This document shows positions 5,785-24,491 of a stretch of DNA of 26,229 bases, piece after piece. Position numbers and translations under genes: made by a program. The stretch lies in the IMG/VR virus record IMGVR_UViG_3300027782_000314, positions 1-26,229 of that record; one strand, given 5' to 3'. Each line of letters opens with the position of its first letter. Within the stretch, counting starts at the first letter, position 1. The notes beneath the pieces are model-generated. The model did not search any database. It was not told the origin of the DNA and saw only the letters and a list, made by a program, of their open reading frames with translations. The stretch is from a virus.

Positions 5785-6348
5785 ATGAACGGCGAATGGT
5801 CGTATATCAAAGGGTATTTTACTCCCGACGAATGTGACTTTATAATTTCTCAAGCAGAAAAAATTACCGCATTTGACGGTGTTGTTGGCGATACCGGTTC
5901 AGTTGATAATCAATGGCGTAGAAGTACAATACGTCCTATATTAAAAAATCAAGATTGGCATTATCTTTTTGACAAAGTAGATCAAGCAGTGGCAAACATA
6001 AACAGAGAATGGTTTAATATTGCCTATGATTTTTTACCTGGAATACAGTTTGCCTCTTACAACGAGTCAAATCAAGGCTGCTATAAACGGCATCAAGATG
6101 TATTCTTAATGTCGCCTAACAATACACATAGGAAACTAAGTTTTACAGTACAGCTATCAGATCCTACTACATATCAGGGCGGCGAATTAAAATTTTTCGA
6201 TGTTGCTTTACACCCTGATGGGGCAAACATGCAAGCAAGAGGTACACTCTGTGTATTTCCTAGCATTATTTTTCACGAAATAACACCAGTTACGAAGGGC
6301 GTTAGGCATAGTTTAGCAGGGTGGTACGAAGGCCCTAGATGGAGATAA
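5785..6348 (+). CDS. 2-oxoglutarate/Fe(II)-dependent oxygenase (prolyl 4-hydroxylase-like)
   Basis: 187 residues, the size of a single double-stranded beta-helix domain. Iron ligands are visible as HQD (H103, D105) and H164 in FHEITPV, and the 2-oxoglutarate-binding Arg is R174 in GVRHSLAGW. YQGGELKFF (130-138) is the typical strand before the C-terminal half, so the active site looks complete. The family hydroxylates Pro, Lys or other side chains, or sugars and bases, using O2 and 2-oxoglutarate. Members are common in marine T4-like phages but substrates are mostly unknown. The position between two YTW genes behind the fibre suggests a virion or host-surface protein as target (inference). 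There is no clear Shine-Dalgarno; translation probably couples to the gene ending 5 nt before. Confidence 0.9.
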   Translation: MNGEWSYIKGYFTPDECDFIISQAEKITAFDGVVGDTGSVDNQWRRSTIRPILKNQDWHYLFDKVDQAVANINREWFNIAYDFLPGIQFASYNESNQGCYKRHQDVFLMSPNNTHRKLSFTVQLSDPTTYQGGELKFFDVALHPDGANMQARGTLCVFPSIIFHEITPVTKGVRHSLAGWYEGPRWR

Positions 6349-6351
6349 ATA
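6344..6351 (+). promoter_or_regulatory. Late-promoter-like GATAAATA (predicted leaderless start)
   Basis: One mismatch to TATAAATA. It overlaps the oxygenase stop. The last A is 6 nt before the A of ATG 6357, so by T4 geometry transcription would begin on the start codon. A GGAG at 6341-6344 could alternatively serve as a ribosome site, 12 nt away. Confidence 0.4.
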
Positions 6352-6356
6352 ATATT

Positions 6357-6680
6357 ATGATTACATATACATGGGAATTTCCAAGATTTTTAGCACACCC
6401 TACTCTTAATGGCCTTGCTAATGTAGTACATGGTATTGAGTTTATCCTATCTGCAACTGACGGCGAAGGCCATGGCGCTCAAGTGTTTGGAACTGTTGGT
6501 CTTTCAGAACCTAATCCAGATAATTATATTCCTTTTAACCATTTAACTTCGCAGCAAGTTTTAGAATGGGTAGAAGCTTCTATGGGCGAAGAAGTTTTGG
6601 GCGATTATAAAGATAATCTTGCTCGACAAATAGAACAACAGATAACACCTGTATCTGTCACATTAAACAAACCTTGGTAA
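6357..6680 (+). CDS. YTW-family small protein, copy C
   Basis: 107 residues from ATG 6357. I chose this start over the in-frame ATG at 6339 because MITYTW then lines up with MAINYTW and MATTYTW of the two paralogues, and because the longer form would overlap the oxygenase gene. Landmarks: a TDGEGHG loop, NYIPFNHLTSQQVLEWVEA, then a YKDNLARQIEQQI helix. It is the last gene of the + strand block. Its TAA (6678-6680) touches the stop of the convergent Nudix gene with no base between and no terminator hairpin. Function unknown. Confidence 0.8.
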   Translation: MITYTWEFPRFLAHPTLNGLANVVHGIEFILSATDGEGHGAQVFGTVGLSEPNPDNYIPFNHLTSQQVLEWVEASMGEEVLGDYKDNLARQIEQQITPVSVTLNKPW

Positions 6681-7124
6681 TTATTGAATAATATCTAATA
6701 GCAATTCAATTTTTGTTCTATTAGTTCTATTTGAAAGACTACGCTTAACACCTTGATGTAAAGGTTTAGGCCATTGATTTAAATCACACCAAGCATAACC
6801 TACATGTTCAGAATTTAGAGTAGGAATAAATTCTTTTTCAACAACCAACACATAGGTGTTAAATTGAAATCTTTGATCTTCACTGGTGAATAATTCTAAT
6901 GGTATAGATTTTTTAATACTAGGAGTTTTTCCTACTTCTTCCTGCACTTCTCTCATTAGTGCAGCATAAACAGTTGAATCTGTTTCTTCTTTTTTGCCGC
7001 CTACAATACCCCAAGACCCTGCAGTCTTGCCTTGATTACGCAGCAAAAATAAAAATCTTTTAGTATCGCGGGCAACAAATAATCCGCCACTACATATGAT
7101 ATCTGTTACAGAACTAATCTCCAT
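6681..7124 (-). CDS. Nudix hydrolase
   Basis: 147 residues, one Nudix domain. The core REVQEEVG (58-65) carries the metal-binding glutamates, preceded by WGIVGGKKEE (38-47). The classical box GX5EX7REUXEEXGU is slightly off: the acidic residue before the helix is Asp49, and eight rather than seven residues separate it from Arg58. Nudix enzymes cleave nucleoside diphosphates linked to X. T4 itself has one (NudE: ADP-ribose, Ap3A, FADH2), but the substrate here cannot be read from sequence. It is the last gene of the - strand tail operon and overlaps gp15 by 19 nt. AGGAGA abuts the ATG, too close for normal use, and no other start is available after the upstream in-frame stop, so translation is probably coupled to gp15. 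Confidence 0.87.
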   Translation of the reverse strand: MEISSVTDIICSGGLFVARDTKRFLFLLRNQGKTAGSWGIVGGKKEETDSTVYAALMREVQEEVGKTPSIKKSIPLELFTSEDQRFQFNTYVLVVEKEFIPTLNSEHVGYAWCDLNQWPKPLHQGVKRSLSNRTNRTKIELLLDIIQ

Positions 7125-8533
7125 TCTCCTGGATAGTACATGCCATCAATACTCTTAGACCATTGTTCGCCGTCCCATTTGTATTGTGTGCCTGTATATG
7201 AATTAGTTATATAGACAATGTCCGTGACTTCTGCGGAATTGAAAATAACATTCCATTTGGCGCCGTCCCATTGAATAATATCGTTAGCTGAAGCAACAAC
7301 ATCACTGTTGTCACTGTTTTGCCATGCATCAGGACCGTCAACATCGTTGCTTGATATATCTTCTAATATTAGATAACGAGTATCAATGCTTGGAGTACCT
7401 GGATTATAAGTCAACGGATTTACAATGGCATTGACTGTGCCCCTAGTATACGTTGAAGTTAAATCAGTGATATCTGTATTCAATAATGTTTCACTGTCAT
7501 ACTGTACATTAAACAAATCCATGTCACCTTCGTCTAAAGGATTAATACTTAGATAACCTACAATGCGATTTCCGTCCGGCTTGGTCAATTCAATGTGACT
7601 TAATCCTGCTCTAAATTTTCCAGGATACAGATCTACTAGCACACGCCAGTTTATTTTAACACCTGCTTTGACTTGAACATTTTCTAAATCGTCAACTGCT
7701 AGATTTTCACCTGCCGCCATTAGTTTTGCAGTATTATTAGTCATTAACACTGAAAAATTACCTGGAGTGACCACAACAGGTGATACAGGATTACTGAAAC
7801 TTAACTGACCAGAACCAATAGTACCAGTAGGTTCAGTAAACACGTTGGCAATGATCTTAGTGATAATGCCTAGTTTTTTAACTTTAGCAGGAGGACTGAT
7901 CCATATAGGAGTAATAAATGTTAGATTGCTAATATCAATATCATTTTCTGTTCCCTGCGGAATCTGTCTACTACTCCAGGTAGTACCTGTTAACTCAACA
8001 TAACTCAAACTGGTCCAATCAATATAGTTGTTTGTGGTTTGAATCTCCATTGCAGGTCTAAATAACACTAATATCTGCTCTAATATCTGTAATTTTTGAT
8101 CTGTATTTGTTGACCACACATCTGCACAGAAGGTTAAATTGTAAGGACTTGGCATCAGTCGTTCAACAGTGTAATTCTCTCCCTGTGAGTTAGCGTACCC
8201 TTCTATAGTTTGACCATAGGTAGGGCTTTCTGGATTTTCATCAATATATCCGTACTGTCTTTCTCTGATATGCATCTTGCCAATGTATGTGGGATCTTGT
8301 AATCGATCACGAGCAAAGTCTAAACTTTTAATATAACAGGCAATAAATGGTGCAGAATTTAAAACGTTCTCACTGTTCTTTTTCATCACCCCAGCAACTT
8401 GTCTAGTCATATCTCCATACCGAACAGGTATTTGTGTAAGATTTCCACGAGCATCTTTGTAGGTAAAATTACTCATTAATCTCATAAACTGTGTTAGGTA
8501 ACGACGTATTTGGCCATCATAGAAGTGTTCCAT
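7106..8533 (-). CDS. 15: Tail sheath stabiliser / tail completion protein gp15
   Basis: 475 residues from ATG 8533; I prefer this to a TTG at 8566 because AGGA lies 9 nt upstream and MEHFYDGQIRRYL matches the family start. It follows the T4 gp15 pattern: FYxxxxRRY, SNFTY...IPVRYGD, APFIACYIKSLDFARDRL, MPSPYNLTF, QILEQILVLFRPAM, and ISNLTFITPIWISPP. gp15 forms the hexamer closing the top of the tail, holding the last sheath ring and docking to the neck. T4 gp15 is 272 residues; this one has about 200 extra C-terminal residues with W-G-x-x-W style repeats (IQWDGAKW, YKWDGEQW), probably an exposed decoration. The start overlaps the stop of the Cys-rich gene (TAATG), and the end overlaps the Nudix start. 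Confidence 0.88.
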   Translation of the reverse strand: MEHFYDGQIRRYLTQFMRLMSNFTYKDARGNLTQIPVRYGDMTRQVAGVMKKNSENVLNSAPFIACYIKSLDFARDRLQDPTYIGKMHIRERQYGYIDENPESPTYGQTIEGYANSQGENYTVERLMPSPYNLTFCADVWSTNTDQKLQILEQILVLFRPAMEIQTTNNYIDWTSLSYVELTGTTWSSRQIPQGTENDIDISNLTFITPIWISPPAKVKKLGIITKIIANVFTEPTGTIGSGQLSFSNPVSPVVVTPGNFSVLMTNNTAKLMAAGENLAVDDLENVQVKAGVKINWRVLVDLYPGKFRAGLSHIELTKPDGNRIVGYLSINPLDEGDMDLFNVQYDSETLLNTDITDLTSTYTRGTVNAIVNPLTYNPGTPSIDTRYLILEDISSNDVDGPDAWQNSDNSDVVASANDIIQWDGAKWNVIFNSAEVTDIVYITNSYTGTQYKWDGEQWSKSIDGMYYPGEWRLVL

Positions 8534-8703
8534 TATTTGTTTTCCTGTTCTTGTTGATTGACGCAAGTCTCACATTCGCAGTCTGAACAATAGTCACAAT
8601 CTAAACAACTATGGCCGCAATGTTGGGGACAACCACATTTACATTTAAATGTATATCTTTTATAATTTTCAAAATCGTCCATATATTTCTCAAATTTTTT
8701 CAT
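8533..8703 (-). CDS. Cys-rich 56-residue microprotein between gp14 and gp15
   Basis: Reading the - strand gives ATG 8703 directly after the gp14 stop (TAAATG), and a TAA at 8535-8533 that shares a base with the gp15 ATG. This tight packing and the lack of any other gene here support a real gene. The N-terminal 20 residues are charged and aromatic (MKKFEKYMDDFENYKRYTFK). The next 27 hold ten cysteines (21, 23, 25, 29, 33, 36, 39, 42, 44, 47) and two histidines (28, 31); the tail is Gln/Glu/Asn-rich. The CxCxC, CxxC and CxxCxC spacing suggests binding of two or more zinc ions or another metal cluster. There is no signal peptide, so disulphides are less likely in the cytoplasm. It may be a virion neck component or a regulator; function unknown. 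Confidence 0.75.
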   Translation of the reverse strand: MKKFEKYMDDFENYKRYTFKCKCGCPQHCGHSCLDCDYCSDCECETCVNQQEQENK

Positions 8704-9912
8704 TTACATATCTGCCTGAGGTTTTTGTTTCTTTAGAGCCTTGCTTAGACTCTGTCTTTCTTCAATAATTTTCCCTGCAACAGTGGCAGTGTTATTGTTA
8801 TTAATAAAACTACCTACCAAGTTATGTCTGGATAATGAATCATCAACTGGAATACCATTTACTGGCTTATTAGTCATAGTCATCCTTATATTGCTTTCAA
8901 TATAAATCCAAGTACTTCCGTTATATCTAAACAATCTATTAGGTAGGTAATCTGTTCTTAAGTGATATGTACCTGCCGAAGGTCCGGACGGAAATGAAAT
9001 TCCAAAACTATACGGTGCACCATTTGGCGGTATTCCGTCACCACCATCCGGTACTGGTGTAATATATACATCTTTATCAGGAGCTAAGAATACACTGGAA
9101 GCGTCGGCAACATGATCGTCTTCACTGGCATCACGGTCGGCAATACTAGCATCAAGAATACTTAATAATCCATCTTCTTTAGTTGGTAATACATAGAATT
9201 GTGTAGTGTCATATCCGCTGACATTGGCGTCTTCTTCTGCCTGTGCAATAATTTGATTATTAATTTCAATGTTCTTATTGTACATTGACATAACATCGCG
9301 TAAAGTATTAGTGCCGTCACCCGCATCCTGATCCAAGATTTGTTTAAATTCTTGGCTGTCAACTAACGGTTCACATTTGACACGAAGTAAATGAGGATAC
9401 CATGTTTGACTATAACCTGTAGCAGCACGAGTAACATCTGTAATTACATAGAAACGTTTTAGAGCCACCATGTCATCGCCTAGAGCATACTCGTCTTTCA
9501 AGTGGGGCAATTCTAAAACATCACCGCTCATTAATTTTCTACCAAGAAGATCTACAGTAGCACGTAAGTGAAACGTGATCATAATATTGTCATTAGTTAG
9601 AAAGAATCCAAATTGACTTAGATTAAAATCAATGTCCTGCATGGTATAAATTCCACGAGTAACATACACATCTTTGTCATATTTTCTATCTCTATTTTCC
9701 ATGAATAATACATCTTGAATTCCTAATTCAGCAATAGCATTGCCATTCACAGGAGTAGAAGGCGAAGCATCGGCAGCATCTGGATCTTGTGGTCCTAGAT
9801 ATTTGTGTACAACAATATCAGTTCCGCCCACTTGAAACTGCTCGTTAATAACACGGTCGAGCAAGCGGAAATCGTTGCCCTTTTCTGGGCGGTAAAGAGA
9901 TAGTCTTGGCAT
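8704..9912 (-). CDS. 14: Neck protein gp14
   Basis: 402 residues. The N-terminal part matches gp14 of T4-like phages: RLLDRVINEQFQVGGTDIVVHKYLG (16-40), IQDVLFMENRDRKYD (65-79), then FGFFLTNDNIMITFHLR and a KLMSGDVLELPHL strand pair (126-138). The C-terminal LRTDYLPNRLFRYNGSTW (318-335) and ERQSLSKALKKQKPQAD tail (385-401) are hallmarks I know from marine T4-like gp14. gp14 and gp13 form the neck that joins the filled head to the tail. Residues about 200-310 are an acidic linker. It is first in the - strand operon. No Shine-Dalgarno precedes the ATG; a CATAAATA element predicts a 2-nt leader. Unusually, it is on the strand opposite to gp13. Confidence 0.85.
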   Translation of the reverse strand: MPRLSLYRPEKGNDFRLLDRVINEQFQVGGTDIVVHKYLGPQDPDAADASPSTPVNGNAIAELGIQDVLFMENRDRKYDKDVYVTRGIYTMQDIDFNLSQFGFFLTNDNIMITFHLRATVDLLGRKLMSGDVLELPHLKDEYALGDDMVALKRFYVITDVTRAATGYSQTWYPHLLRVKCEPLVDSQEFKQILDQDAGDGTNTLRDVMSMYNKNIEINNQIIAQAEEDANVSGYDTTQFYVLPTKEDGLLSILDASIADRDASEDDHVADASSVFLAPDKDVYITPVPDGGDGIPPNGAPYSFGISFPSGPSAGTYHLRTDYLPNRLFRYNGSTWIYIESNIRMTMTNKPVNGIPVDDSLSRHNLVGSFINNNNTATVAGKIIEERQSLSKALKKQKPQADM

Positions 9913-9919
9913 AGTTGTA

Positions 9920-9927
9920 TATTTATG
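9920..9927 (-). promoter_or_regulatory. Late-promoter-like CATAAATA for gp14 operon
   Basis: One mismatch to TATAAATA, read on the - strand. The predicted start is at 9914, two bases before the gp14 ATG. It lies next to the opposing gp13 motif in the same 28-nt divergent gap. Confidence 0.5.
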
Positions 9928-9935
9928 GCTAAATA
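9928..9935 (+). promoter_or_regulatory. Late-promoter-like GCTAAATA for gp13 (predicted leaderless start)
   Basis: Contains the CTAAATA form seen repeatedly in this window. The last A is 6 nt before the A of ATG 9941. No Shine-Dalgarno is present. Confidence 0.5.
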
Positions 9936-9940
9936 TCTGT

Positions 9941-10699
9941 ATGAGCGAACTTGAAACAGAAAAAGAAAAAGTAGTCGGCTATATCCGTGCTATGCTAGGC
10001 GACGGAATGATCGATGTAGAGTTGGATCCTATCCACTACAATACCGCAATTGACCGTTCCCTAATGAAGTATCGTCAACGCAGTAGTAACGCTGTAGAAG
10101 AAAGTTTTGGATTCTTAACCCTACAAACTGACGTTAATGAATACACCCTAGCTCCTGAAGTAATACAAGTTAGACAAGTTTTTAGACGCAGTATTGGTTC
10201 ACGTACAGGCGGCGGGGATGGTGGCACATTGTTTGAACCGTTCAACTTAGCCTACTCTAACACTTATTTGCTGGCCAGCACCAACATGGGCGGCTTGTCA
10301 ACATATTATATGTTCTCTAGCTACCAAAAAGAAGTTGGTAAAATGTTTGGCTCCTACATTAATTTTGACTGGAATCCTACATATAAACGTCTAAGAATTA
10401 CTCAACGGCCACGCGGTGAAGAAAATGTCCTACTTTGGATGTACAATCAAAAACCTGATTTTGCATTGTTCCAAGACACTTATTCCGGAATATGGGTTAA
10501 AGACTATGCTCTAGCTAACTGTAAAGTAATGCTGGGAGAGGCCCGTGAAAAATTTGCTACTATTGCTAGTCCGCAAGGCGGCACACAGCTGAACGGTACA
10601 GCTCTTAAAGCTGAAGGCAAAGCTGAAATGGAACAATTAGAACTAGATCTAATCAACTATAAAGACAATCAAACTCCAATGTCTTTTGTAATCGGCTAA
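9941..10699 (+). CDS. 13: Neck protein gp13
   Basis: 252 residues (T4 gp13 is 309). The start KEKVVGYIRAMLGDGMIDVELDP and the helix NTAIDRSLMKYRQRS fit the gp13 pattern of a short N-terminal helical bundle that contacts the portal side. NEYTLAPEVIQVRQVFRR, FNWNP-type INFDWNPTYKRLRI and WVKDYALANCKVMLGEAREKF follow in family order. The protein ends with ELDLINYKDNQTPMSFVIG. gp13 forms the neck ring with gp14 after DNA packaging. No Shine-Dalgarno precedes the ATG; see the promoter at 9928. The gene is divergent from gp14 with 28 nt between them, whereas in T4 both are on one strand in tandem. Confidence 0.85.
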   Translation: MSELETEKEKVVGYIRAMLGDGMIDVELDPIHYNTAIDRSLMKYRQRSSNAVEESFGFLTLQTDVNEYTLAPEVIQVRQVFRRSIGSRTGGGDGGTLFEPFNLAYSNTYLLASTNMGGLSTYYMFSSYQKEVGKMFGSYINFDWNPTYKRLRITQRPRGEENVLLWMYNQKPDFALFQDTYSGIWVKDYALANCKVMLGEAREKFATIASPQGGTQLNGTALKAEGKAEMEQLELDLINYKDNQTPMSFVIG

Positions 10700-10706
10700 T
10701 AAAAAT

Positions 10707-10735
10707 TTGACATCGTAACGTAAATGTAATAAATT
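10707..10735 (+). promoter_or_regulatory. Possible sigma-70-type promoter before dNMP kinase
   Basis: TTGACA (10707-10712, perfect -35) with a 17-nt spacer and TAAATT (10730-10735, 4 of 6 to TATAAT). The start would be about 10742, giving a ~15-nt leader with AGGGGG. It fits early expression of a nucleotide-metabolism gene. The -10 is weak. Confidence 0.35.
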
Positions 10736-10756
10736 ATAGTGGCATTAGGGGGCTCT

Positions 10757-11413
10757 ATGATTATTGGTTTTGTTGGATTTATTGGCAGCGGCAAAGACAC
10801 GGCTGCAGACTATCTAGTTAACTGTCACGGTTTTAGACGTGACTCATTTGCTAACACACTAAAAGATGCTGTAGCACAGGTATTTGGCTGGGACAGAACC
10901 TTGCTAGAAGGCCGTACAGCAGAAGCTCGTGAATGGAGAGAACAGATCGATCTATGGTGGAGCGAACGTCTTGGCATACCTGAACTTACTCCTCGATGGG
11001 TGTTGCAACAATGGGGCACTGAAGTTTGCCGCCAAGGCTTTCACGATGACATTTGGATTGCTAGTTTAGAAAATAAAATGCGAAAAACTAGAGACAACAT
11101 TGTTATTAGCGATGTCCGTTTTCCCAACGAAATTAAAGCTATTCACAGTGCTGGGGGCTTGGTAGTACGTATCAAGCGAGGCGTTGACCCCGATTGGTAT
11201 GATGCTGCATTATCAGCAAATCACGGGCCTGACGGTAACTCTACATGGTCTTTGAGCATATCAAAATTAGAACGGCTGGGTATACACACCAGTGAAACAG
11301 CTTGGGTAGGAGGCAATATTGATCATACTGTGAACAATGACACTACTATCGACAACATGTTTCAACAGATTAAAAATCTGGTGTCAGATCTCCCCGCTTC
11401 CAAGGAAGTTTAA
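10757..11413 (+). CDS. 1: Deoxynucleoside monophosphate kinase, gp1-like
   Basis: 218 residues from ATG 10757, preferred over GTG 10739 because AGGGGG (10747-10752) precedes it and MIIGFVGFIGSGKDTAADYL aligns with the family start. The P-loop is GFIGSGKDT (7-15). The substrate-binding region follows: FANTLKDAVAQVFGWDR, then WVLQQWGTEVCRQGFHDDIWI and IVISDVRFPNE (T4 gp1 has an equivalent DTRQ-type strand), and VVRIKRG. T4 gp1 phosphorylates dTMP, dGMP and hydroxymethyl-dCMP; the exact substrates here are unknown. It stands between gp13 and the sheath gene, and its last 44 bases overlap the convergent HNH gene. It may have its own early-type promoter, unlike the late genes around it. Confidence 0.8.
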   Translation: MIIGFVGFIGSGKDTAADYLVNCHGFRRDSFANTLKDAVAQVFGWDRTLLEGRTAEAREWREQIDLWWSERLGIPELTPRWVLQQWGTEVCRQGFHDDIWIASLENKMRKTRDNIVISDVRFPNEIKAIHSAGGLVVRIKRGVDPDWYDAALSANHGPDGNSTWSLSISKLERLGIHTSETAWVGGNIDHTVNNDTTIDNMFQQIKNLVSDLPASKEV

Positions 11414-11705
11414 GTTTGTGTAATAATCGTTGACAGTTTGCACAGACGGTTTTTAGATTCTCGTATCTACAATTTTTAACATCGCCGTCTATGTGATAAA
11501 CGTCCAATTGATTAGTGTCCTCTGATTTAAACCCGCATCTATCACATACAGTTTTCTTTTTGTATCCTGTGTTTATCCAACTAGGACGATTTGTTTTAAA
11601 GTCTTTTGCACAGTGATCGCATATTGATCTGTAAAATACCCTATCTGCTTTTTTGTAATTGATAGCAACAGGTCTACGCTGACATTTTTTACATAGATCT
11701 CTCAT
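11370..11705 (-). CDS. HNH endonuclease, free-standing
   Basis: 111 residues. Two CxxC pairs each form a zinc site: C5/C8 with C29/C32, and C54/C57 with C88/C91. The second encloses the HNH fold, with LDVYHIDGD (H71), NCRYENL (N83) and CANCQRLLH (C88-H96). All expected catalytic positions are present, so it looks active. Such small HNH proteins occur in T4-like phages as mobile, homing-type nucleases or as host-DNA nicking enzymes. It is alone on the - strand, and its 3' end overlaps the dNMP kinase gene by 44 bp, which suggests insertion or drift at a gene boundary. Upstream, on the - strand, AAAGGGCGG precedes the ATG and a TATAAA lies at 11732-11727. Confidence 0.85.
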   Translation of the reverse strand: MRDLCKKCQRRPVAINYKKADRVFYRSICDHCAKDFKTNRPSWINTGYKKKTVCDRCGFKSEDTNQLDVYHIDGDVKNCRYENLKTVCANCQRLLHKLKLPWKRGDLTPDF

Positions 11706-11765
11706 ACACCGCCCTTTTTAATCCCTTTTATACCGTATTTAAGCCGAGATTTTTTAACCATTCTC

Positions 11766-11773
11766 ACTAAATA
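11766..11773 (+). promoter_or_regulatory. Late-promoter-like ACTAAATA for sheath gene
   Basis: CTAAATA form. The predicted start is 11779, giving a 28-nt leader with GGGAG at 11794-11798, 8 nt before ATG 11807. Confidence 0.55.
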
Positions 11774-11806
11774 TACAAGAAGAAACCATTTATGGGAGAT
11801 AACAAG

Positions 11807-15156: not shown

Positions 15157-15164
15157 GGTAAATA
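15157..15164 (+). promoter_or_regulatory. Late-promoter-like GGTAAATA for tube gene
   Basis: TAAATA core just after the sheath stop. The predicted start is 15170, giving a 17-nt leader with AAGGAG at 15173-15178 before ATG 15187. It would give extra tube message, as expected for an abundant protein. Confidence 0.45.
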
Positions 15165-15825: not shown

Positions 15826-15840
15826 TAGACCTAATTAAAG

Positions 15841-15865
15841 AAAGCCCCTTAATGGGGCTTTTTTT
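15841..15865 (+). terminator. Rho-independent terminator after tube gene
   Basis: AAAGCCCC (15841-15848), loop TTAAT, GGGGCTTT (15854-15861), then a continued T run to 15865. This is an 8-bp perfect stem with a 4-bp GC core, 15 nt after the tube stop. Confidence 0.9.
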
Positions 15866-15868
15866 ATG

Positions 15869-15876
15869 ACTAAATA
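15869..15876 (+). promoter_or_regulatory. Late-promoter-like ACTAAATA (predicted leaderless start)
   Basis: Follows the terminator directly. The last A is 6 nt before the A of ATG 15882, and no Shine-Dalgarno is present, so the message probably starts at the AUG. Confidence 0.55.
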
Positions 15877-15881: not shown

Positions 15882-17489
15882 ATGGCAAACGCATTTACTA
15901 ATTTTTTAGGGCAAGTTATTACTGGAGGCGGATCAACAAACGTCAAAGACTATTCTCACGCTAGTAGACTCTATGTAGATGATTATTTTAGACTAGCGCC
16001 CAAGGTTGGATTTTTATATTATGTTAAATTTAATATCAATAGGAATGGAAATCCTATTGTGGAAGAGTATATAGGACGAAACGGACAAGAATTGGGTTTG
16101 ATGGTTAAAATGTTAGACCTTCCTAAATATAAAATGTCCACTGAGACTATGAATCAGTACAATAAGAAAACTATTGTACAGAGTAAAATAGATTATACTC
16201 CAGTCAACATCACTTTCCACGACGACAATAACAATACAACAACAGGTATGTGGAAAGCCTATTACAATTATTATTTTGTTGACGGAAAAAATACCAGCGG
16301 ACTATCAATACCTCCGGGGTACAAAGATTCGAAGTACAAAAAACCCGGAGCAAGCATCAGTGAAAGTACATCCTTTGGCCTAAACAACGGGCAAACTGAT
16401 CCGTTTTTTAATTCAATTGAAATATATCAGTTAAACCGCAAGCAGTTTACAGCATTTATTTTAGTAAATCCCATCATTACAGATTACAGTCATGATCAAC
16501 TTGATCAATCTCAGAGTAAGGGACTAGAAAATAAAATGACTGTGGCCTATGAAACTGTGTTATATGGAACTGGAGTAGTCAAACAAGATAGTCCTAGTGG
16601 ATTTGCATCAATACATTATGATAACACTCCCGGGCCATTGAGTATATTTGGCGGCGGGAATAATAGTTTATTTGGACCAGGCGGCATTGTACCCGGCATT
16701 GGGGAAGTACTTGGCGGCGGGGGAAATACTAGTCCATTAGGTTTATTAAAAACTGCACGAGGAGTTTCAAACATTGCAAGAAACGTAAAAAATGTTTCTA
16801 AAGCCAGCGTTTTATCTGAAGGTTTTGGTATTTTAGATAAAGTAGCTAGAGGACAAAAATTAACTGATGTGTTGTCAGGGTCTAGTTCTAAAGGATTGGC
16901 ACTGGCAACTTTGCCCGGAGAAAAAGCCACTACTGGAATTCCAAAACTTACTGGTGCTGACGGATTGGCCAAAGCAATTGGCGGAGTAACTGACACAGTT
17001 AAAAATGTGGCCAACAAGTTAGGAGACAAGTTAAAAGGTTTATTACCTTCAACTGTTCCCACTACAAAAGTAGGACTATCTGCTCTTCAAGCTGAACAGA
17101 CAGCAATTAAATCAGATATTGAGACTAGAATTGCTGCCAATCAAATTATCAAAGACAACCTAATACCTCAGTTAGCAGCAGCACAGGCTGCAAATGACAC
17201 TGATCAAGTTGCTTCAATATACAGTCAGCTTGATGCTGCTGATTATACTGATCCAGATAAATTAACAGAACAACTTAATTCTGTAACAACAAATATACAA
17301 ACGTTGAGTACACTAATTGCCGAAGCTGATGCAATTGAAACACCAAATTCTACGTTATCGGCTGAAACTATTGATCTAGGAGTTGCAGAAGAAGATGTTT
17401 ATAATGTTGTCTCTAATCCAGATTTAGTTACCCAGGTCAACATTACCTACACAGAAAATACAGGTAACACTCCACAATTTTACGTATGA
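15882..17489 (+). CDS. Tail-tube-fold baseplate protein (gp48/gp54-like)
   Basis: 535 residues. The N-terminal ~230 residues show the tube fold seen in gp19, gp48 and gp54: KVGFLYYVKFNI, GLMVKMLDLPKYKMSTETMNQYN, KIDYTPVNITFHDD, WKAYYNYYF, RKQFTAFILVNPIITDYSHDQLD and MTVAYETVLYGTG. In T4 such non-gp19 tube-fold proteins cap the baseplate and start tube growth. I cannot decide between gp48 and gp54. After it come a Gly-rich linker (about 245-285), small-residue-rich helices, and a coiled-coil-like region (about 395-480). The long C-terminus is unusual and might reach into the tube or act like a tape-measure anchor (inference). The stop overlaps the next ATG by 4 nt. Confidence 0.7.
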   Translation: MANAFTNFLGQVITGGGSTNVKDYSHASRLYVDDYFRLAPKVGFLYYVKFNINRNGNPIVEEYIGRNGQELGLMVKMLDLPKYKMSTETMNQYNKKTIVQSKIDYTPVNITFHDDNNNTTTGMWKAYYNYYFVDGKNTSGLSIPPGYKDSKYKKPGASISESTSFGLNNGQTDPFFNSIEIYQLNRKQFTAFILVNPIITDYSHDQLDQSQSKGLENKMTVAYETVLYGTGVVKQDSPSGFASIHYDNTPGPLSIFGGGNNSLFGPGGIVPGIGEVLGGGGNTSPLGLLKTARGVSNIARNVKNVSKASVLSEGFGILDKVARGQKLTDVLSGSSSKGLALATLPGEKATTGIPKLTGADGLAKAIGGVTDTVKNVANKLGDKLKGLLPSTVPTTKVGLSALQAEQTAIKSDIETRIAANQIIKDNLIPQLAAAQAANDTDQVASIYSQLDAADYTDPDKLTEQLNSVTTNIQTLSTLIAEADAIETPNSTLSAETIDLGVAEEDVYNVVSNPDLVTQVNITYTENTGNTPQFYV

Positions 17490-17860: not shown

Positions 17861-18297
17861 GAGGCGCAGCTAGGGGAAAGTTTACTCCCAAGAACCCAGA
17901 AAAATATCAAGGCTTATCTGACCCAACATATCGTTCAAGTTGGGAATTTACTTTTATGACCTTTTGCGATAATAATCCTGCTGTTGAACATTGGGCTAGC
18001 GAAAGTGTAAAGATACCTTATAGAGATCCGCTGACTGGAAAAAATACTGTGTATGTTCCAGATTTCTTAATTGTCTACGTAGACAAGAATCAAAAGAAAC
18101 ACGCAGAACTAATAGAAATCAAACCAAAAAATCAAGCAGTTAGAGAATCAGTTGGAAAAAATCCTCACAATCAAGCAGCCTACATACGTAATATGGCAAA
18201 ATGGGAAGCAGCACAGGCTTGGTGCAAAAAATACGGTGTAAAATTTAGGGTAGTCAGCGAGGATGATATTTACCACTCTGGTGGTAAAAAACGATAA
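17857..18297 (+). CDS. 4: Head completion protein gp4 (PD-(D/E)xK nuclease-like fold)
   Basis: 146 residues. GKFTPKNPEKYQG, DPTYRSSWEFTFM and VEHWASESVKIPYRDPLTGK match T4 gp4 closely in pattern, followed by YVPDFLIVY and ELIEIKPK. E30, D69, E87 and K89 make a TnsA/PD-(D/E)xK-type active site, all intact. gp4 is needed to finish packaged heads so that tails can join, and is thought to trim or protect the DNA end. It overlaps the preceding gene by 4 nt, and the small-terminase-like gene follows after 8 nt, so head-completion and packaging functions sit together. Confidence 0.87.
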   Translation: MRGAARGKFTPKNPEKYQGLSDPTYRSSWEFTFMTFCDNNPAVEHWASESVKIPYRDPLTGKNTVYVPDFLIVYVDKNQKKHAELIEIKPKNQAVRESVGKNPHNQAAYIRNMAKWEAAQAWCKKYGVKFRVVSEDDIYHSGGKKR

Positions 18298-18305
18298 GTA
18301 GTTTT

Positions 18306-18782
18306 ATGACTAAGAGACTTGAAGAACTTTTCAACTTACCTCAAGAGGAAGTATCTGTAGTAACAGCTACTGAGGTAGAAGCACCTCCAGTAATTTCACT
18401 AGAAGAAAAGCTAGAACAATTTGATAAAATTTCCGCAGCACTACCTAGAGTCAAAGGCCTAGGTGATGTTAGCGATGCTGAGTTAGATGGACTAGCAGCC
18501 AAAGCAGAATCTGCATACGACGATATAATGAATTTGGCCATGCAAGTCGAACCCAAGTACAGTTCTCGTATGTTTGAAGTTGCTACTGGTATGTTAACTG
18601 CGGCTATTACAGCAAAAACTAATAAAATTGATAAAAAATTAAAAATGGTCGAACTGCAACTTAAAAAATATGCAGTGGACAAGAAGAACGGCGATCAAGA
18701 GCAAGGCGCAATCGAAGCTGAGGGGTATATCGTTGCAGACCGTAACAGCATCCTAGAAAAACTTAAAAATATGAATAAATAA
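18306..18782 (+). CDS. 16: Small terminase subunit gp16-like
   Basis: 158 residues (T4 gp16: 164). The N-terminal ~45 residues are acidic and variable (LEELFNLPQEEV, ISLEEKLEQF). The core is two long helices: ELDGLAAKAESAYDDIMNLAMQV, then SSRMFEVATGMLTAAITAKTNKIDKKLKMVELQLKK, the coiled-coil pair by which gp16-type small terminases form rings. The acidic C-terminal tail ends with DRNSILEKLKNMNK. gp16 recognises DNA and regulates the ATPase of gp17. Neighbouring gp4 and the downstream gp17 support the call, but no sequence motif is decisive; a general coiled-coil head protein is the alternative. No clear Shine-Dalgarno; it starts 8 nt after the gp4 stop. Confidence 0.65.
   Translation: MTKRLEELFNLPQEEVSVVTATEVEAPPVISLEEKLEQFDKISAALPRVKGLGDVSDAELDGLAAKAESAYDDIMNLAMQVEPKYSSRMFEVATGMLTAAITAKTNKIDKKLKMVELQLKKYAVDKKNGDQEQGAIEAEGYIVADRNSILEKLKNMNK
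18774..18781 (+). promoter_or_regulatory. Late-promoter-like AATAAATA
   Basis: Overlaps the stop of the small terminase gene. The predicted start is 18787, giving a 13-nt leader with AGGA at 18788-18791 before ATG 18800. Confidence 0.4.
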
Positions 18783-18799
18783 AGCATAGGAAAACCGCT

Positions 18800-19393
18800 A
18801 TGAGATCATTTAAAGAATACCTTACAGAATCAGTTAGAAAATTTGACTTTAGAATTAAAGTCGCACAAGAGTGTACCTCTGAAGATGAAACAAAACTAAA
18901 AGGCCTATTAGAACGTTTCAGCGTAGCTGATTTCAAGAAAACTGGTAAAACACCAATACAACAATTGCCTTTAGATTTCCCTCAAGTTCAAAATACAGAA
19001 GTTCACATTTACGAAGTTTCACTAAACTATCCAACAACACCTCAAGAATTATTAGAATATCTAAGCTCAGGAATGGGTGTTAACAAAGCTAATATGGTGG
19101 TGCGTAATCCTAGAGAACCCAGTGAAGAATATCAAGCAGAGCATACTCCACGCGAAGGTGCTTTGTTAAATGACAGCGAATATAAAGAATCACCAAACGT
19201 TAAACACGAAGACTATTATGGTGACAAATATAATGCAAACTTTTTAAAATCATTAACCGCAGATCTTAAAAAGATGCGTGAAGCACGAGGCGAAGTTATT
19301 CCCAACACAGCTGATGGAAAAACAACCAACGAAATCCCTCAAAACAATAAAAGTCCGATACAACAATCGAACTACGACCCAAGGAAGAAATAA
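18800..19393 (+). CDS. Probable head-associated protein with capsid-targeting-like N-terminus
   Basis: 197 residues. The N-terminus MRSFKEYLTE|S resembles, position by position, the T4 internal-protein targeting peptide (MKTYQEFIAE|A in IPIII-type proteins). LTE|S fits the gp21 prohead protease consensus, so the first ten residues may direct it into the prohead and be removed. Next comes a folded domain: KFDFRIKVAQEC, PLDFPQVQNTEVHIYEVSLNYPTTPQELLEYL, VNKANMVVRNPREPSEEYQ. The second half is polar and probably disordered. AGGA 8 nt upstream decides the start. Related proteins are familiar from marine phages but without function. Role inside the capsid is inference. Confidence 0.75.
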   Translation: MRSFKEYLTESVRKFDFRIKVAQECTSEDETKLKGLLERFSVADFKKTGKTPIQQLPLDFPQVQNTEVHIYEVSLNYPTTPQELLEYLSSGMGVNKANMVVRNPREPSEEYQAEHTPREGALLNDSEYKESPNVKHEDYYGDKYNANFLKSLTADLKKMREARGEVIPNTADGKTTNEIPQNNKSPIQQSNYDPRKK

Positions 19394-19394
19394 T

Positions 19395-20633
19395 ATGCAA
19401 ATGATAGACGTATTGAAAAGATTGGCCGAACTGGATCAAGGTAATCCTAATGTAGTTAATCCTATGACAAAGCCAGTTGAAGTAAAGCCTGAAGTTATTG
19501 CTGAAGGTCGCGAAATTCAACTTAACTTACCTGAACCAGGTCTAGATGATCTTAGAAAATTATCAGGTCGTAAAACTCTAACAGAGTCAGCTATTGCAGA
19601 ATGCGGTATGCCAACAATGGGAGCACCTATGCCCAGCATGCCAGCAAGTATCAATATGAGTGCAGGCAGTGCTAATGAAATTGTTTCTATGGTACGCGGC
19701 ATTATGGATCTTGCCAAAGGTGATGTTCCAAGTCAAACAATGATGCCCACAATGGGTGCAGACATGCCAAGCCTATTGCCAGGATTTGGCAGTGTAGGTG
19801 AACCAGATGCTGATATGGATGCAGCTCCTGATTCATTGAACAAGAGTATGGGTGACGTAGATGGTGACGGCGATCACGATGTTGCCGATCATGCAAAAGA
19901 ACTAGGTGCGGGCACCAGTGATGACGACATCATGGATCTAATTAAAAAAATCCGTACAGGTGATGCAGTTAAAATCAAAACAGACATGCCTGTAAAAGTT
20001 ACCAGCGATGAACCTATCAAAGGTCGCACAGATCAACAGGCTAATGTTGATAGTGATGACAAGCCAGAAGATGAGGGCATGGAAGTGCCTGGCAAGGCAA
20101 ACACAACCCCTAACGATCCGACAGATCCAGGTAGATACGATCCTAAGAAAGGTGTGTTTATGCCTAATACTGGTAATCAAGGTGATCGCATGGACGGTCC
20201 TATGCCAAAAGGTAACCCAGAAAAGAAAGATGAATCTTCAAATCCTCTAGCAGCTTTTGAATCTAAGCTAATGAACGAGTACAAAAAGTTTGTTGAAGAA
20301 TCTAAATTTAAAGATTTAGAAAAGACATTGAGTCATCAAAAGGGTGTTACTAACCCAGCTGGATTAGCTAAATGGATCGGTGACAAAAAGTACGGTAAGA
20401 AAGAAATGGAAAGAAAAGCAGCCGCAGGTCGTAGTGACGAGTCACAAGTTATGCACAACAAGTATGATGAAGCAAGTCATCAAGCTAATGTTACTATGAA
20501 ACATGTTAATGCTAGTGATGCTTCTCCTAAGGTAAAAGCTGCCATTGGTAAAGCATCTAAAGATATTAAGCCAGGTGTTAAAGGTTACGCCGATAGAGCA
20601 GCCGCATTAAATGCCGCTGGTATAAAGCGTTAA
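19395..20633 (+). CDS. Acidic Met/Pro/Gly-rich virion candidate with EF-hand-like loop
   Basis: 412 residues from ATG 19395, chosen because AAGGAAG lies 7-8 nt upstream and the start sits 1 nt after the previous stop. Residues 70-135 are Met/Pro/Gly-rich with a MPTMGAxMPS repeat. Residues 154-165 form a complete EF-hand/dockerin-type calcium loop (D154, D156, D158, G159, D160, D162, D165). There follow an acidic region, LAAFESKLMNEYKKF, then LAKWIGDKKYGKKEMERKAAAGR and a basic C-terminus (KVKAAIGKASKDIKPG...AGIKR). Possible gp21-type cleavage sites are VIAE37|G, LTE64|S and IAE69|C. It looks like a core, scaffold or internal head protein, but I do not recognise a named family. A terminator follows. 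Confidence 0.75.
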   Translation: MQMIDVLKRLAELDQGNPNVVNPMTKPVEVKPEVIAEGREIQLNLPEPGLDDLRKLSGRKTLTESAIAECGMPTMGAPMPSMPASINMSAGSANEIVSMVRGIMDLAKGDVPSQTMMPTMGADMPSLLPGFGSVGEPDADMDAAPDSLNKSMGDVDGDGDHDVADHAKELGAGTSDDDIMDLIKKIRTGDAVKIKTDMPVKVTSDEPIKGRTDQQANVDSDDKPEDEGMEVPGKANTTPNDPTDPGRYDPKKGVFMPNTGNQGDRMDGPMPKGNPEKKDESSNPLAAFESKLMNEYKKFVEESKFKDLEKTLSHQKGVTNPAGLAKWIGDKKYGKKEMERKAAAGRSDESQVMHNKYDEASHQANVTMKHVNASDASPKVKAAIGKASKDIKPGVKGYADRAAALNAAGIKR

Positions 20634-20650
20634 TTTAAAATGGTATAACC

Positions 20651-20678
20651 AAATAGGCTCTCCGGAGCCTATTTTTTT
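20651..20678 (+). terminator. Rho-independent terminator before gp17
   Basis: AAATAGGCTC (20651-20660), loop TCCG, GAGCCTATTT (20665-20674), T run to 20678. The stem is 10 bp and perfect, and the loop is a stable C(UCCG)G tetraloop. It lies 17 nt after the preceding stop. Confidence 0.92.
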
Positions 20679-20679
20679 C

Positions 20680-20687
20680 AGTAAATA
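20680..20687 (+). promoter_or_regulatory. Late-promoter-like AGTAAATA for gp17 (predicted leaderless start)
   Basis: Begins 2 nt after the terminator T run. The last A is 6 nt before the A of ATG 20693, and no Shine-Dalgarno is present. Confidence 0.5.
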
Positions 20688-20692
20688 ATCAT

Positions 20693-22282
20693 ATGGCAAC
20701 GAACAAATTTGATACACTGGTAAAGAAACCTCACACCACACAACGGTGGACAGAGCAAGATATTGAGGATCTAATGAAGTGTCAGGACACGGCTACTGGT
20801 CCCCACTATTTTATGGAACATTTCTTTTATATTCAACATCCTACAAAAGGCAAGTTAAAATACGAAGCATTTGAATATCAAAAACGTCTAATTGACAGCT
20901 ATCACGACCATCGGTTTAATGTAAACTTGCTGCCACGTCAAACAGGTAAGACAACCACTGCCGCAGGATATCTATTATGGTTTGCTATGTTTATACCTGA
21001 CAGCACAATTCTTGTAGCGGCGCACAAATATACAGGTGCTCAAGAAATTATGAGTCGTATACGCTATTCATATGAATTGTGTCCTGACCATATTCGTTGC
21101 GGAGTCAAAAGTTACAACAAGCAAAGTATTGAATTTGACAATGGTTCACGTATTGTAGCACAGACAACTACACCAACAACAGGTCGCGGTATGTCTTTAT
21201 CATTGTTATACGCTGATGAGTTTGCATTCGTTGAACCCAACATCGCTACAGAATTCTGGACTTCTATTTCGCCCACATTGGCCACAGGTGGTAAGGCAAT
21301 TATCACTTCAACTCCTAACAGTGACGAAGATCAGTTTGCACAAATTTGGAAAGAAGCTAATAAAAAGTTTGACGAACACGGCAACGAACAGGACGTTGGC
21401 CGTAACGGTTTCTTTCCGTTTAGAGCACATTGGAGTGAACATCCTGACCGAGATCAAGCATGGGCAGACACTGAAAAATCACGCATTGGTGAAGAACGAT
21501 TCCGTCGTGAACATGAGTGTGAATTCTTAATCTTTGACGAAACACTGATCAATAGTATTACCTTATCAGATTTAGAGGGTGTTGATCCTATACTAAAAAT
21601 GGGACAAGTACGCTGGTACAAAAAAGTAAACCCAACTTCAATGTATATACTTGCATTAGACCCAAGCCTTGGTACAGGTGGAGATTACGCAGCCATACAG
21701 GTGTTAGAAGTACCTAGTTTCAAACAGGTAGCAGAGTGGAATCACAATACCACTCCAGTACAACAACAAGTCCGAATACTTAGAGAAATCTGCAAGTATA
21801 TTGACAGCGAATGTGCCGCCACAGAAGGCAGAGGACAGATCTACTACTCAGTAGAGAACAACACTGTAGGCGAAGCAGCCCTGGTGGCAATTAACGAAAT
21901 GGGCGAGGAAAGCATACCTGGCTTGTTCTTATCAGAACCAATTAAAAAGGGTCATGTACGTAGATTTCGTAGAGGATTTAACACTACAAACGTCAGCAAA
22001 ATTGCTGCCTGTGCTAAACTTAAGCAGCTAATTGAACAAAAACGAATTACAATACATAGCAAACCGCTGATCAGCGAACTTAAAACATATATTGCCAAAG
22101 GCGTGAGTTTTGAAGCAAAAGTCAACGAAACTGACGATCTTGTATCAAGTTTACTACTAGCTGTACGTATGGTTGGCATGCTAGGAGACTGGGATCCCGC
22201 AGTCTACGAGCGTATGGTTGAAGATAGAGGGTTAGACGATATTGATCTGCCCATGCCGATCTTTATCAATAGTTTTGCATAA
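20693..22282 (+). CDS. 17: Large terminase subunit gp17
   Basis: 529 residues. ATPase domain: Walker A-type LPRQTGKTT (80-88), Walker B LLYADEF with D175 and E176, and coupling motif ITSTPNS (204-210). Nuclease domain of RNase H type: ALDPSLGTGGD (D323), YSVENNTVGEA (E388), and ETDDLVSSLLLA (D481/D482), all acidic ligands present. This is the motor that pumps DNA into the prohead and cuts the concatemer. It is slightly shorter than T4 gp17 (610), mainly lacking extra N- and C-terminal length. It has its own terminator-promoter boundary and is separated from the small terminase by two genes, unlike T4 where 16 and 17 overlap. Confidence 0.95.
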   Translation: MATNKFDTLVKKPHTTQRWTEQDIEDLMKCQDTATGPHYFMEHFFYIQHPTKGKLKYEAFEYQKRLIDSYHDHRFNVNLLPRQTGKTTTAAGYLLWFAMFIPDSTILVAAHKYTGAQEIMSRIRYSYELCPDHIRCGVKSYNKQSIEFDNGSRIVAQTTTPTTGRGMSLSLLYADEFAFVEPNIATEFWTSISPTLATGGKAIITSTPNSDEDQFAQIWKEANKKFDEHGNEQDVGRNGFFPFRAHWSEHPDRDQAWADTEKSRIGEERFRREHECEFLIFDETLINSITLSDLEGVDPILKMGQVRWYKKVNPTSMYILALDPSLGTGGDYAAIQVLEVPSFKQVAEWNHNTTPVQQQVRILREICKYIDSECAATEGRGQIYYSVENNTVGEAALVAINEMGEESIPGLFLSEPIKKGHVRRFRRGFNTTNVSKIAACAKLKQLIEQKRITIHSKPLISELKTYIAKGVSFEAKVNETDDLVSSLLLAVRMVGMLGDWDPAVYERMVEDRGLDDIDLPMPIFINSFA

Positions 22283-22285
22283 ATA
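22278..22285 (+). promoter_or_regulatory. Late-promoter-like CATAAATA
   Basis: Spans the gp17 stop. The predicted start at 22291 is 2 nt before ATG 22293. No Shine-Dalgarno is visible. Confidence 0.45.
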
Positions 22286-22292
22286 TGCTAAT

Positions 22293-24491
22293 ATGAATAT
22301 CATTGAAATAATTGCACAAGACGTTTTTGACAAAGTTCGTGGCAGATTCTCTAATCTAGAGATGGGCAACGAAGAAGGAGCCGTGACTTCTAATCCTAGA
22401 GAAGCTAGATTTTTTGACTTTGATTTTACAGTTGAAGAACAAAATTTAGGTCGTGTTAGTGTTAGTATTAATGAACGTGGCTCGTTAAAAATATTTTACA
22501 GTCAAGGAATTACTGAAGGCGTAGACAGTGTTAGCACAAGCATATGGTACGACTTCTTAAAAGAAATGAGATATTTTGCAAAACGCAGAATGCTGGTATT
22601 TGATACTAGAGATATTACCAAAGGCAATTTAAATAAAAATGACTTTCAATATCTTGCACAAAACGGATCCAAGGAAGATAACATGAACGAAGCAAAAATG
22701 TATGGAACTCCTACTAGAAGTTATAAAACATTAAACAAAAAGAACAAAGCTAGAATGGTAATACGTCATTCTGAAGCAGTTGACGAAAGCGTACCTGGCG
22801 CAAGATCAAGAAAAATTGATGCAATTTTTATTGAAAATCATCTAGGCGAGCGTTTTAAAATGCCTATAAATTCTACAACAGCCGCTGGCGCAATGTTACA
22901 ACATGTACACCAAGGCGGTATTCCTTATGATGACATAGGCGAATGTATTCTTGAAATGAGTAGAGACATGGCATCATTATCAGCCTTTGGAAAACATGCC
23001 AGTCGTCACGACAGTATGAACACTGAAACAAATGAAATACTAGAACGCAGCCATGCAAAATTAAACGAACTACGTAATACTCTAAAGAGTCTAGCAAAAC
23101 CAAAATTTTATGAAGCATGGGCTGAAAATTTTGAACCTCGCCAACAAGACGACGGTTTTGAATTAGATCAGGCCACTATGGAAGATTACAAGGCAAAGTT
23201 TACAGTTAATAAATTTGAAGAAAACCTTGCACAATATTTTCCATTGATTCATAAGATCATGCAGGAAACAGGTACAGTTGATTTAGAAGCAGTGGTATCC
23301 GAAGGTGCAATGGATGCTAATGCAATTTGGAGTAGATACGGACACTATTCTAAAGAAGACTTAATGCAGGAATTTCCAGAGCTAACACCTAAGGATGCAC
23401 AGACTATTGTAAACTATGCAGAATACGGTTGGTCCAATATGCCTAATCGTCAAGAGTATAGAGACGAAGTCGTGAAAAGAGTTCAAATGGCTATGAGTGG
23501 CGGAAGTCCCAATGACAGTAAACCCGCAGTGGGATTTGAAAATTTTGAATCTTGGGCAGACTCTGTTGTAGAAGGCACGTTGAATCCTGACACGCTGGGA
23601 CAACTGATTGAACTATTACAAACAGGTTTAACATTTGGAGGCAACGATGCGTTTGGTGCAATTGAATCGTTGGAAAACATCGGCATGTCAAATCATCGCG
23701 ACTGGGATAAATTAGAAGCAGCTCTACGTGGGGCTGCTGGTGCTAACCCAGACGGTGATCCTAAGGATGTAATTATTCCTTGGCTACAAAAAGATGATCC
23801 AGAAGCAGCCGCAGAAATTCAAAGAATGATGGAACCACAACAAGCAGCGCCTGCTGAACCTGCGGCAGCACCTGTTGAACCTCCAGTGGCGGAAGCAGAA
23901 GAAGATGAGGGCGAAGCGTATGTTGCCTGCATAGTACAACATAATCGTTCAGGTCAAGCAATGGTGCAAAGAACAAAACCTATAAGTCGTGAACGAGCAG
24001 AAGAAGTAATTAAAAATGCTCTTGCTAAAAATACATTTGTACACCCGCCGTTTATGACCATTTACCCAGCAAGTGCTGGTAAGTTAGACGGCTCAACTAT
24101 CATGGCCAAATATCCTGATATGAGTAAAGAAGGCATGAGAGAAGGTCCTGCTGACGAACCAGTACATCCAGATGACAACGCCGACGATAAGCGTTGGGAC
24201 GACATGGATCAAGAAGATAGCATGGACAATAAAGAAGAACAACCACATCATGCATCAACACGTGAAATTGCTGAGACTATAATGTCTTTCTGTAACACAG
24301 AAGATATGACATTCCCCAAAGGCGAAGAAGGTGTCATTATTCGTTGCGGTAAAATGTACGGGCCACGCGGGGAAGCATTAGCCACACGTTTAGTTGATCA
24401 TATCAAGCAACAGCGTGAAGCAATGGAAGCACAACGCAGTGTTCAAAATCAGTTTGAAGAAATTCGTAGGCTGGCCGGCTTAGTCAAGTAA
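22293..24491 (+). CDS. Large conserved phage protein of unknown function
   Basis: 732 residues from ATG 22293; an earlier in-frame ATG (22242) lies within gp17 and would add a non-matching lead. Regions: FFDFDFTVEEQNLGRVSVSINE (40-61) with WYDFLKEMRYFAKRRMLVFD, a compact alpha/beta unit; MYGTPTRSYKTL and a basic stretch (about 135-160); a long helical middle; then a Gln/Ala/Pro/Glu linker (QQAAPAEPAAAPVEPPVAEA, about residues 515-540) and a C-terminal domain starting YVACIVQHNRSGQAMVQ. The end QFEEIRRLAGLVK resembles tails of marine T4-like virion proteins. I recognise the style from environmental T4-like phages but know no function. Late promoter and place after gp17 suggest a virion or packaging role. 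Confidence 0.75.
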   Translation: MNIIEIIAQDVFDKVRGRFSNLEMGNEEGAVTSNPREARFFDFDFTVEEQNLGRVSVSINERGSLKIFYSQGITEGVDSVSTSIWYDFLKEMRYFAKRRMLVFDTRDITKGNLNKNDFQYLAQNGSKEDNMNEAKMYGTPTRSYKTLNKKNKARMVIRHSEAVDESVPGARSRKIDAIFIENHLGERFKMPINSTTAAGAMLQHVHQGGIPYDDIGECILEMSRDMASLSAFGKHASRHDSMNTETNEILERSHAKLNELRNTLKSLAKPKFYEAWAENFEPRQQDDGFELDQATMEDYKAKFTVNKFEENLAQYFPLIHKIMQETGTVDLEAVVSEGAMDANAIWSRYGHYSKEDLMQEFPELTPKDAQTIVNYAEYGWSNMPNRQEYRDEVVKRVQMAMSGGSPNDSKPAVGFENFESWADSVVEGTLNPDTLGQLIELLQTGLTFGGNDAFGAIESLENIGMSNHRDWDKLEAALRGAAGANPDGDPKDVIIPWLQKDDPEAAAEIQRMMEPQQAAPAEPAAAPVEPPVAEAEEDEGEAYVACIVQHNRSGQAMVQRTKPISRERAEEVIKNALAKNTFVHPPFMTIYPASAGKLDGSTIMAKYPDMSKEGMREGPADEPVHPDDNADDKRWDDMDQEDSMDNKEEQPHHASTREIAETIMSFCNTEDMTFPKGEEGVIIRCGKMYGPRGEALATRLVDHIKQQREAMEAQRSVQNQFEEIRRLAGLVK

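Follow-up and report, generated by a model that had tools for sequence, protein, structure and literature searches.

Can a T4-like phage place the start of its late transcripts on the start codon itself, so that structural genes are translated from leaderless mRNAs? The question is raised by IMG/VR virus record IMGVR_UViG_3300027782_000314, a 26,229-bp fragment of an uncultivated jumbo-type myovirus of the T4 superfamily (the whole of which is called the window below), in which TAAATA-type late motifs stand a few nucleotides (nt) before the ATG of several genes. The fragment carries tail, neck and packaging genes, namely those for the sheath, two tube-like proteins, a gp4-type head closure protein, a gp13-type neck protein and the large terminase subunit (TerL). 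Our analysis makes it very probable that these motifs are gp55-type late promoters whose predicted +1 coincides with the A of the AUG, so that the mRNAs would be leaderless or have leaders of 1-3 nt. The observations behind this reading are the spacing and its conservation, the absence of Shine-Dalgarno (SD) sequences, the near-exclusive use of ATG, initiator-like bases, upstream terminators and a late sigma gene in relatives; from them we infer that RNA starts at the short-gap sites and that ribosomes use those starts.

Spacing between late motifs and start codons

Genes are named here by their start coordinate, 9912m being the minus-strand gene with its ATG at 9912. The gap is the number of nt between the last base of the late motif and the start codon, and the short class covers 3-8 nt in comparisons of homologues and 4-8 nt in per-promoter counts. 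The original prediction, that TAAATA motifs ending at 6351, 9935, 15876 and 20687 each lie 5 nt before an ATG (6357, 9941, 15882 and 20693) and that two more (9925-9920 on the minus strand and 22280-22285) leave 7 nt, was exact in every coordinate. It was also right that SD strength is near zero at five of these six starts, the sixth (6357) having a GGAG 12 nt away, and that the units with longer gaps (21, 22, 33, 22 and 18 nt at 4800, 5221, 11807, 15187 and 18800) bear SD sequences. The motif itself is of the TAAATA type at all units, but TAAATA is mostly preceded by C, A or G and the full TATAAATA occurs once, at 5191. A seventh short-gap case had escaped the prediction: gene 18306 is preceded at 5 nt by TAAGTA, which overlaps the preceding gene's stop codon and stands at a gap of 4, 5 or 7 nt in 54 of 61 homologues. 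The features concerned are as follows.

4773-4778, + strand: TAAATA, leadered class, 21 nt before ATG 4800, with GGAG
5191-5198, + strand: full TATAAATA, leadered class, 22 nt before ATG 5221, with GGAG
6346-6351, + strand: TAAATA core, 5 nt before ATG 6357; its TAA also closes the reading frame upstream
6357-6680, + strand: phrog_7802 protein, leaderless-type start; its paralogues 4800 and 5420 have an SD
8704-9912, - strand: virion structural protein (phrog_11591), gene 9912m, without SD
9920-9925, - strand: TAAATA core, 7 nt before ATG 9912
9930-9935, + strand: TAAATA core, 5 nt before ATG 9941, forming a back-to-back pair with the minus-strand promoter
9941-10699, + strand: neck protein, head-tail adaptor Ad2 (identified as T4 gp13 type), leaderless-type start
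11768-11773, + strand: TAAATA, leadered class, 33 nt before sheath ATG 11807, with GGGAG
15159-15164, + strand: TAAATA, leadered class, 22 nt before tube ATG 15187, with AAGGAG
15834-15866, + strand: intrinsic terminator (-18.9 kcal/mol) immediately 5' of the 15882 promoter
15871-15876, + strand: TAAATA core, 5 nt before ATG 15882
15882-17489, + strand: tail-tube-like protein (phrog_13438, phrog_4542), leaderless-type start
18295-18300, + strand: variant core TAAGTA, with a gap of 5 nt to ATG 18306; the TAA in it terminates the reading frame of the preceding gene
18306-18782, + strand: phrog_16202 protein, leaderless-type start
18776-18781, + strand: TAAATA, leadered class, 18 nt before ATG 18800, with AGGA; in homologues the gap changes to 5 or 7 nt and the SD is absent
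20651-20680, + strand: intrinsic terminator immediately 5' of the TerL promoter
20682-20687, + strand: TAAATA core, 5 nt before ATG 20693
20693-22282, + strand: TerL, leaderless-type start
22280-22285, + strand: TAAATA core, 7 nt before ATG 22293; includes the TerL stop codon
22293-24491, + strand: virion structural protein (phrog_13484), leaderless-type start or very short leader

Homologues were compared in 160 IMG/VR loci fetched as relatives, and aligning their upstream regions, which was the check proposed with the prediction, gave two spacing classes that are conserved gene by gene, with SD sequences mainly in the long class. With start codons refined, a short gap was found in 91/91 homologues of TerL, 92/92 of 15882, 86/89 of 9941 and 77/83 of 9912m, all with diverged upstream DNA. 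Before this refinement, the gap was exactly 5 nt in 71 of 77 homologues of 9941, 48 of 53 of 15882 and 44 of 50 of TerL, and the ATG was conserved in 72/77, 49/53 and 50/50, respectively, as were the residues that follow it. At 9912m the gap was 7 nt in 56 of 82 homologues, 8 nt in eight and 5 nt in seven; at 22293 it was 5-8 nt in all 48, and at 6357 it was 5 nt in four of the seven homologues found. The 71 copies at 9941 contained 45 distinct spacer sequences, and the distance between the 9912m and 9941 motifs ranged from 0 to 27 nt with the motif-ATG distance constant; therefore it is the length of the spacer, not its sequence, that is held. In the leadered class, the gap was mostly 30-35 nt at the sheath gene and, where a motif was present, mostly 19-25 nt at the tube gene, both with AGGAG; 24 of 64 tube homologues had no motif.

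Positional statistics agreed with these comparisons. All hexamers were tallied position by position upstream of the ATGs of open reading frames (ORFs) of at least 60 codons in three long relative contigs (638 kb), and TAAATA at 5 nt was the commonest word at any single position, with 37 occurrences against 3.3 expected (Poisson P ~5e-26); the words with a higher ratio of observed to expected were SD sequences or pieces of them. Among 173 TAAATA sites of the clade with a downstream ORF, 69 lay at 4-8 nt and 95 at 14-45 nt, with only 4 in between at 9-13 nt, and GTG and TTG were nearly absent as start codons at gaps of 4-8 nt, AUG being the start expected of a leaderless mRNA. In comparison phages (partial genomes of T4, syn9, RaK2, GAP32, PA5oct, Phosso, Atu_ph07 and a Vibrio jumbo phage) only 4 of 115 sites lay at 4-8 nt, three of them (T4, GAP32 and Vibrio 2.275.O) within annotated coding regions. 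It follows that the trait is specific to the lineage. On a quick TerL tree, short spacing occupied most of the uncultivated clade, with exceptions forming a patch among more distant rows and at least seven changes, and was absent from PA5oct, Phosso, GAP32 and Atu_ph07. We regard it as near certain that the pattern is real and is a conserved feature of the clade rather than a curiosity of a single window. Genome-wide, TAAATA was about two-fold rarer than hexamers of the same composition (contigs G001, G002 and G005), as if counter-selected away from promoters.

The division of genes between the classes also bore out what had been proposed, namely leadered sheath and tube and short-gap neck, terminase and baseplate. 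Leaderless-type starts were found at TerL, neck genes, the tube-like protein, a gp25-like baseplate wedge and a small DNA-binding protein; leaders with SD sequences were found at sheath, tube, tail fibers and a holin-like protein. The major capsid gene (gp23) bears AAGGAG and lacks any TAAATA within 110 nt. An SD was absent from 343 of 378 short-gap homologues and present in 28 of 33 long-gap ones. The 18800 family alternates between gaps of 5 or 7 nt without SD and gaps of 17 or 18 nt with AGGA, with six changes on its tree. Genes 4800, 5420 and 6357 are three tandem phrog_7802 paralogues in one genome, two with an SD and one with a leaderless-type start.

Transcription start and late sigma factor

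In T4 the late box occupies -13 to -6, and its upstream edge precedes the transcription start by roughly one turn of the helix (PMC2988020); in the clade the bases around the expected start can be read on their own account. The base preceding the ATG was C or T in 162 of 162 gap-5 sequences (9941, 15882 and TerL), the fifth base after the motif was A in 88 of 88 gap-7 sequences, and A was favored at the same place in long-gap promoters (frequency 0.53). Taken together, a pyrimidine at -1 and an A at motif+5 in the gap-7 and long-gap promoters fit a +1 at motif+5 or motif+6, a reading that does not lean on T4 numbering alone. The predicted placement of +1 on the A of the AUG at 5-nt gaps is thus consistent with the initiator-like bases, but the 2-nt leader predicted for 7-nt gaps agrees with them less well; those genes more likely start on the A at motif+5, with a 3-nt leader of the ACU-AUG type.

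A gp55-type sigma factor (phrog_12791) was encoded in 8 of 8 long relative contigs (E values of 1e-78 to 1e-90), and the element at all units described is of the T4 kind: a single -10-type element with a TAAATA core (or the TAAGTA variant). At 9920-9935 two late promoters stand back to back with their cores 4 nt apart, which leaves no space for a -35 element outside the region transcribed from the partner. We propose that TAAATA and TAAGTA would act as -10-type boxes read by host RNA polymerase carrying the phage gp55-type sigma. About 40% of the clade's late promoters would then start transcription on the A of the AUG (gaps of 4-5 nt) or 1-3 nt before it (gaps of 6-8 nt), producing leaderless mRNAs whose AUGs would presumably be read by direct 5'-AUG binding (70S-type initiation). 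The remaining promoters, those of sheath and tube included, mostly lie 14-45 nt upstream and would give leaders, usually with a strong SD.

Read-through RNA and other explanations

Several points weigh against this proposal. The T4 start position is carried over by analogy, and the gp55 gene lies outside the 26-kb fragment, having been found in relatives. A pyrimidine at -1 is also common in two SD-bearing families; it was therefore rejected as a signature unique to leaderless genes and is counted as supportive. The lack of an SD is partly forced, because the motif occupies the SD position, and 6357 retains a GGAG upstream of its expected +1. When gap was tested against SD by independent pairs in the tree of 18800 homologues, only four supported pairs were available, too few for significance. 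Finally, 22293, 18306, 18800 and 6357 adjoin the upstream gene directly, so that coupled translation of a read-through RNA is possible there.

This last point is the core of one alternative, in which the late promoter motif is real but translation proceeds from read-through RNAs coupled to the upstream gene, the short-gap promoter being minor or a relic. The four genes start within a few nt of the upstream stop codon, which the motif often includes, as coupling would have it. Short spacing is conserved most tightly, however, at TerL and 15882, which lie behind terminators, and at the divergent genes 9912m and 9941. A terminator stands just upstream of TerL in 49 of 50 homologues, with a T-run that stops 3 nt short of the box in 42, and just upstream of 15882 in 32 of 48, and together with the divergence of 9912m and 9941 this makes a longer read-through mRNA unlikely at these genes. 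Moreover, TAAATA was not found at the co-directional genes 17486, 17857 and 19395, and coupling has no need of a fixed 5-nt spacing. We consider this explanation improbable. It is very improbable that TAAATA instead serves translation, as an A/U-rich ribosome site in the mRNA that takes the place of an SD, with true 5' ends further upstream and no promoter at the motif. TAAATA does stand where an SD usually would and the SD is absent, but it also occurs 14-45 nt upstream of genes with an SD, which fits a promoter only, and there is no obvious longer RNA behind the terminators. A translation signal would not leave the range of 9-13 nt empty and would not account for sigma-70 promoters in an equivalent position.

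We give still less credence to misassigned start codons, whereby the real starts would lie downstream behind ordinary short leaders. Some genes do have further in-frame ATGs among their first codons, but conservation extends from the first ATG into the residues that follow, the downstream ATGs have no preceding SD in the sequences shown, and an alternative upstream ATG for 6357 (at 6339) is not conserved. The probability of chance in an AT-rich genome is negligible. One-mismatch matches to TATAAATA were no commoner than in shuffled sequences, yet a scan of this kind is the wrong measure for a signal that resides in position; TAAATA is depleted genome-wide and concentrated at starts, the 37 sites found where 3.3 were expected refute chance, and exact spacing is kept despite diverged spacers. 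The original prediction had named a motif inside a gene near 16131 as accidental. This copy (16124-16129) precedes an in-frame ATG (16134) and was considered as an internal leaderless start; that was rejected, since 1 of 93 homologues keeps the motif, and the copy can serve as a negative control for chance occurrence. With leaderless initiation from late promoters as the preferred explanation, each short-gap gene is likely to depend for its translation solely on RNA made from its own late promoter, read-through RNA remaining untranslated, and to be translated more slowly than genes with an SD.

A further late box lies in the stretch 24489-24516, together with a hairpin: the 5' arm, CCCTAAA, comes after the box, and the 3' arm, TTTAGGG, immediately precedes ATG 24516. 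A transcript starting at the late promoter would lose most of the 5' arm, and a read-through RNA would fold (-0.3 versus -11.7 kcal/mol). The hairpin was seen in just two near-identical loci. T4 gene e and I-TevI have a comparable hairpin arrangement.

Known systems and meaning for the lineage

T4 late transcription is the textbook system, with leadered, SD-driven messages. The clade resembles the gp55/gp33/gp45 late promoters of T4, KVP40, 44RR, Aeh1 and S-PM2 in its box, in the expected start distance, in the gp55-type sigma of relatives and in the lack of space for a -35 element at its back-to-back pair. T4, syn9, RaK2, GAP32, PA5oct, Phosso and Atu_ph07 differ in that the box is mostly 14-45 nt upstream and most of the homologous genes have an SD. 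The clade core is near the Aeh1 form, which has (A/G)C at -13/-12 (PMC2988020). Megablast against cultured phages (50,697 phage records) gave no nucleotide match to the fragment. Its nearest cultured relatives by TerL are the PA5oct-type jumbo phages (Arenbergviridae), at 55% identity; without a nucleotide match, it lacks close core-gene similarity to that family, and the quick TerL tree places it apart, in a separate uncultivated clade. PA5oct-type phages share a similar gene order and the gp55-type sigma, but in PA5oct the gp13-type neck and tube genes are leadered with SD sequences and the whole genome has only four short-gap sites. One of them belongs to gene EST35_0222 (record 144985), which has TATAAATA 5 nt before its ATG and no SD, an arrangement like that of the clade in a cultured phage, and which encodes a structural protein detected by mass spectrometry; a search of the open library for PA5oct 5'-end data gave nothing usable.

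Phage lambda cI is a single prophage gene that is leaderless, with its promoter on the start codon. The late RNAs of phiKZ are leaderless as well, but they are made by the phage's own multisubunit RNA polymerase rather than with a gp55-type sigma. In the giant phage AR9, leaders measure 26-491 nt (PMC5312081). Leaderless mRNAs occur in mycobacteria (PMC4633059) and are common in L. cremoris, where leader lengths are bimodal with none of 4-14 nt (PMC10986495). Both share with the clade the lack of an SD and a promoter on the start codon, and L. cremoris also the empty middle range of leader lengths, but there the genes are those of the host, whereas in the clade they form a phage late regulon alongside strong SD leaders. 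No description of leaderless late mRNAs in T4-like phages was found in the open library searched, which is weak evidence of novelty. Phage-encoded IF3 or S21 was considered as the basis of leaderless translation and rejected: IF3 was not found in any relative contig, and S21 was found only in contig G001 and PA5oct.

In G001, 17 of the 56 host-type TTGACA-N17-TATAAT promoters with a downstream ORF have their -10 box 5-6 nt before an ATG, and many others lead to AAGGAG leaders. Perfect sigma-70 promoters with exactly 5 or 6 nt between -10 box and ATG lie, for example, at contig positions 69132, 69922, 82136 and 262805. These genes are possibly leaderless early genes, a lead rather than a result; at some of the promoters an SD and then another in-frame ATG come after the first, and translation may begin there instead.

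As had been suggested, the two spacing classes would fit a role in setting protein ratios, separating low-copy from high-copy proteins, because capsid, sheath and tube have an SD. With about 40% of late promoters on the start codon across deep divergence, the clade offers a natural experiment on the exchangeability of leaderless and leadered messages, seen both in homologues (the switches of 18800) and in paralogues (4800, 5420 and 6357), which use either mode. Gene callers that depend on an SD, and promoter rules derived from T4, may mis-annotate these phages. The arrangement suggests that late-infection ribosomes translate leaderless RNA well. More tentatively, and on balance doubtfully, the spacing from promoter to AUG may act as a lineage-wide translation lock, in which genes that lack an SD and have their promoter on the start codon are translated from no transcript but their own late one, stay silent on read-through and early RNAs, and have their output set by spacing class. 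If so, early sigma-70 promoters placed in the same way would extend the rule across the whole infection program.

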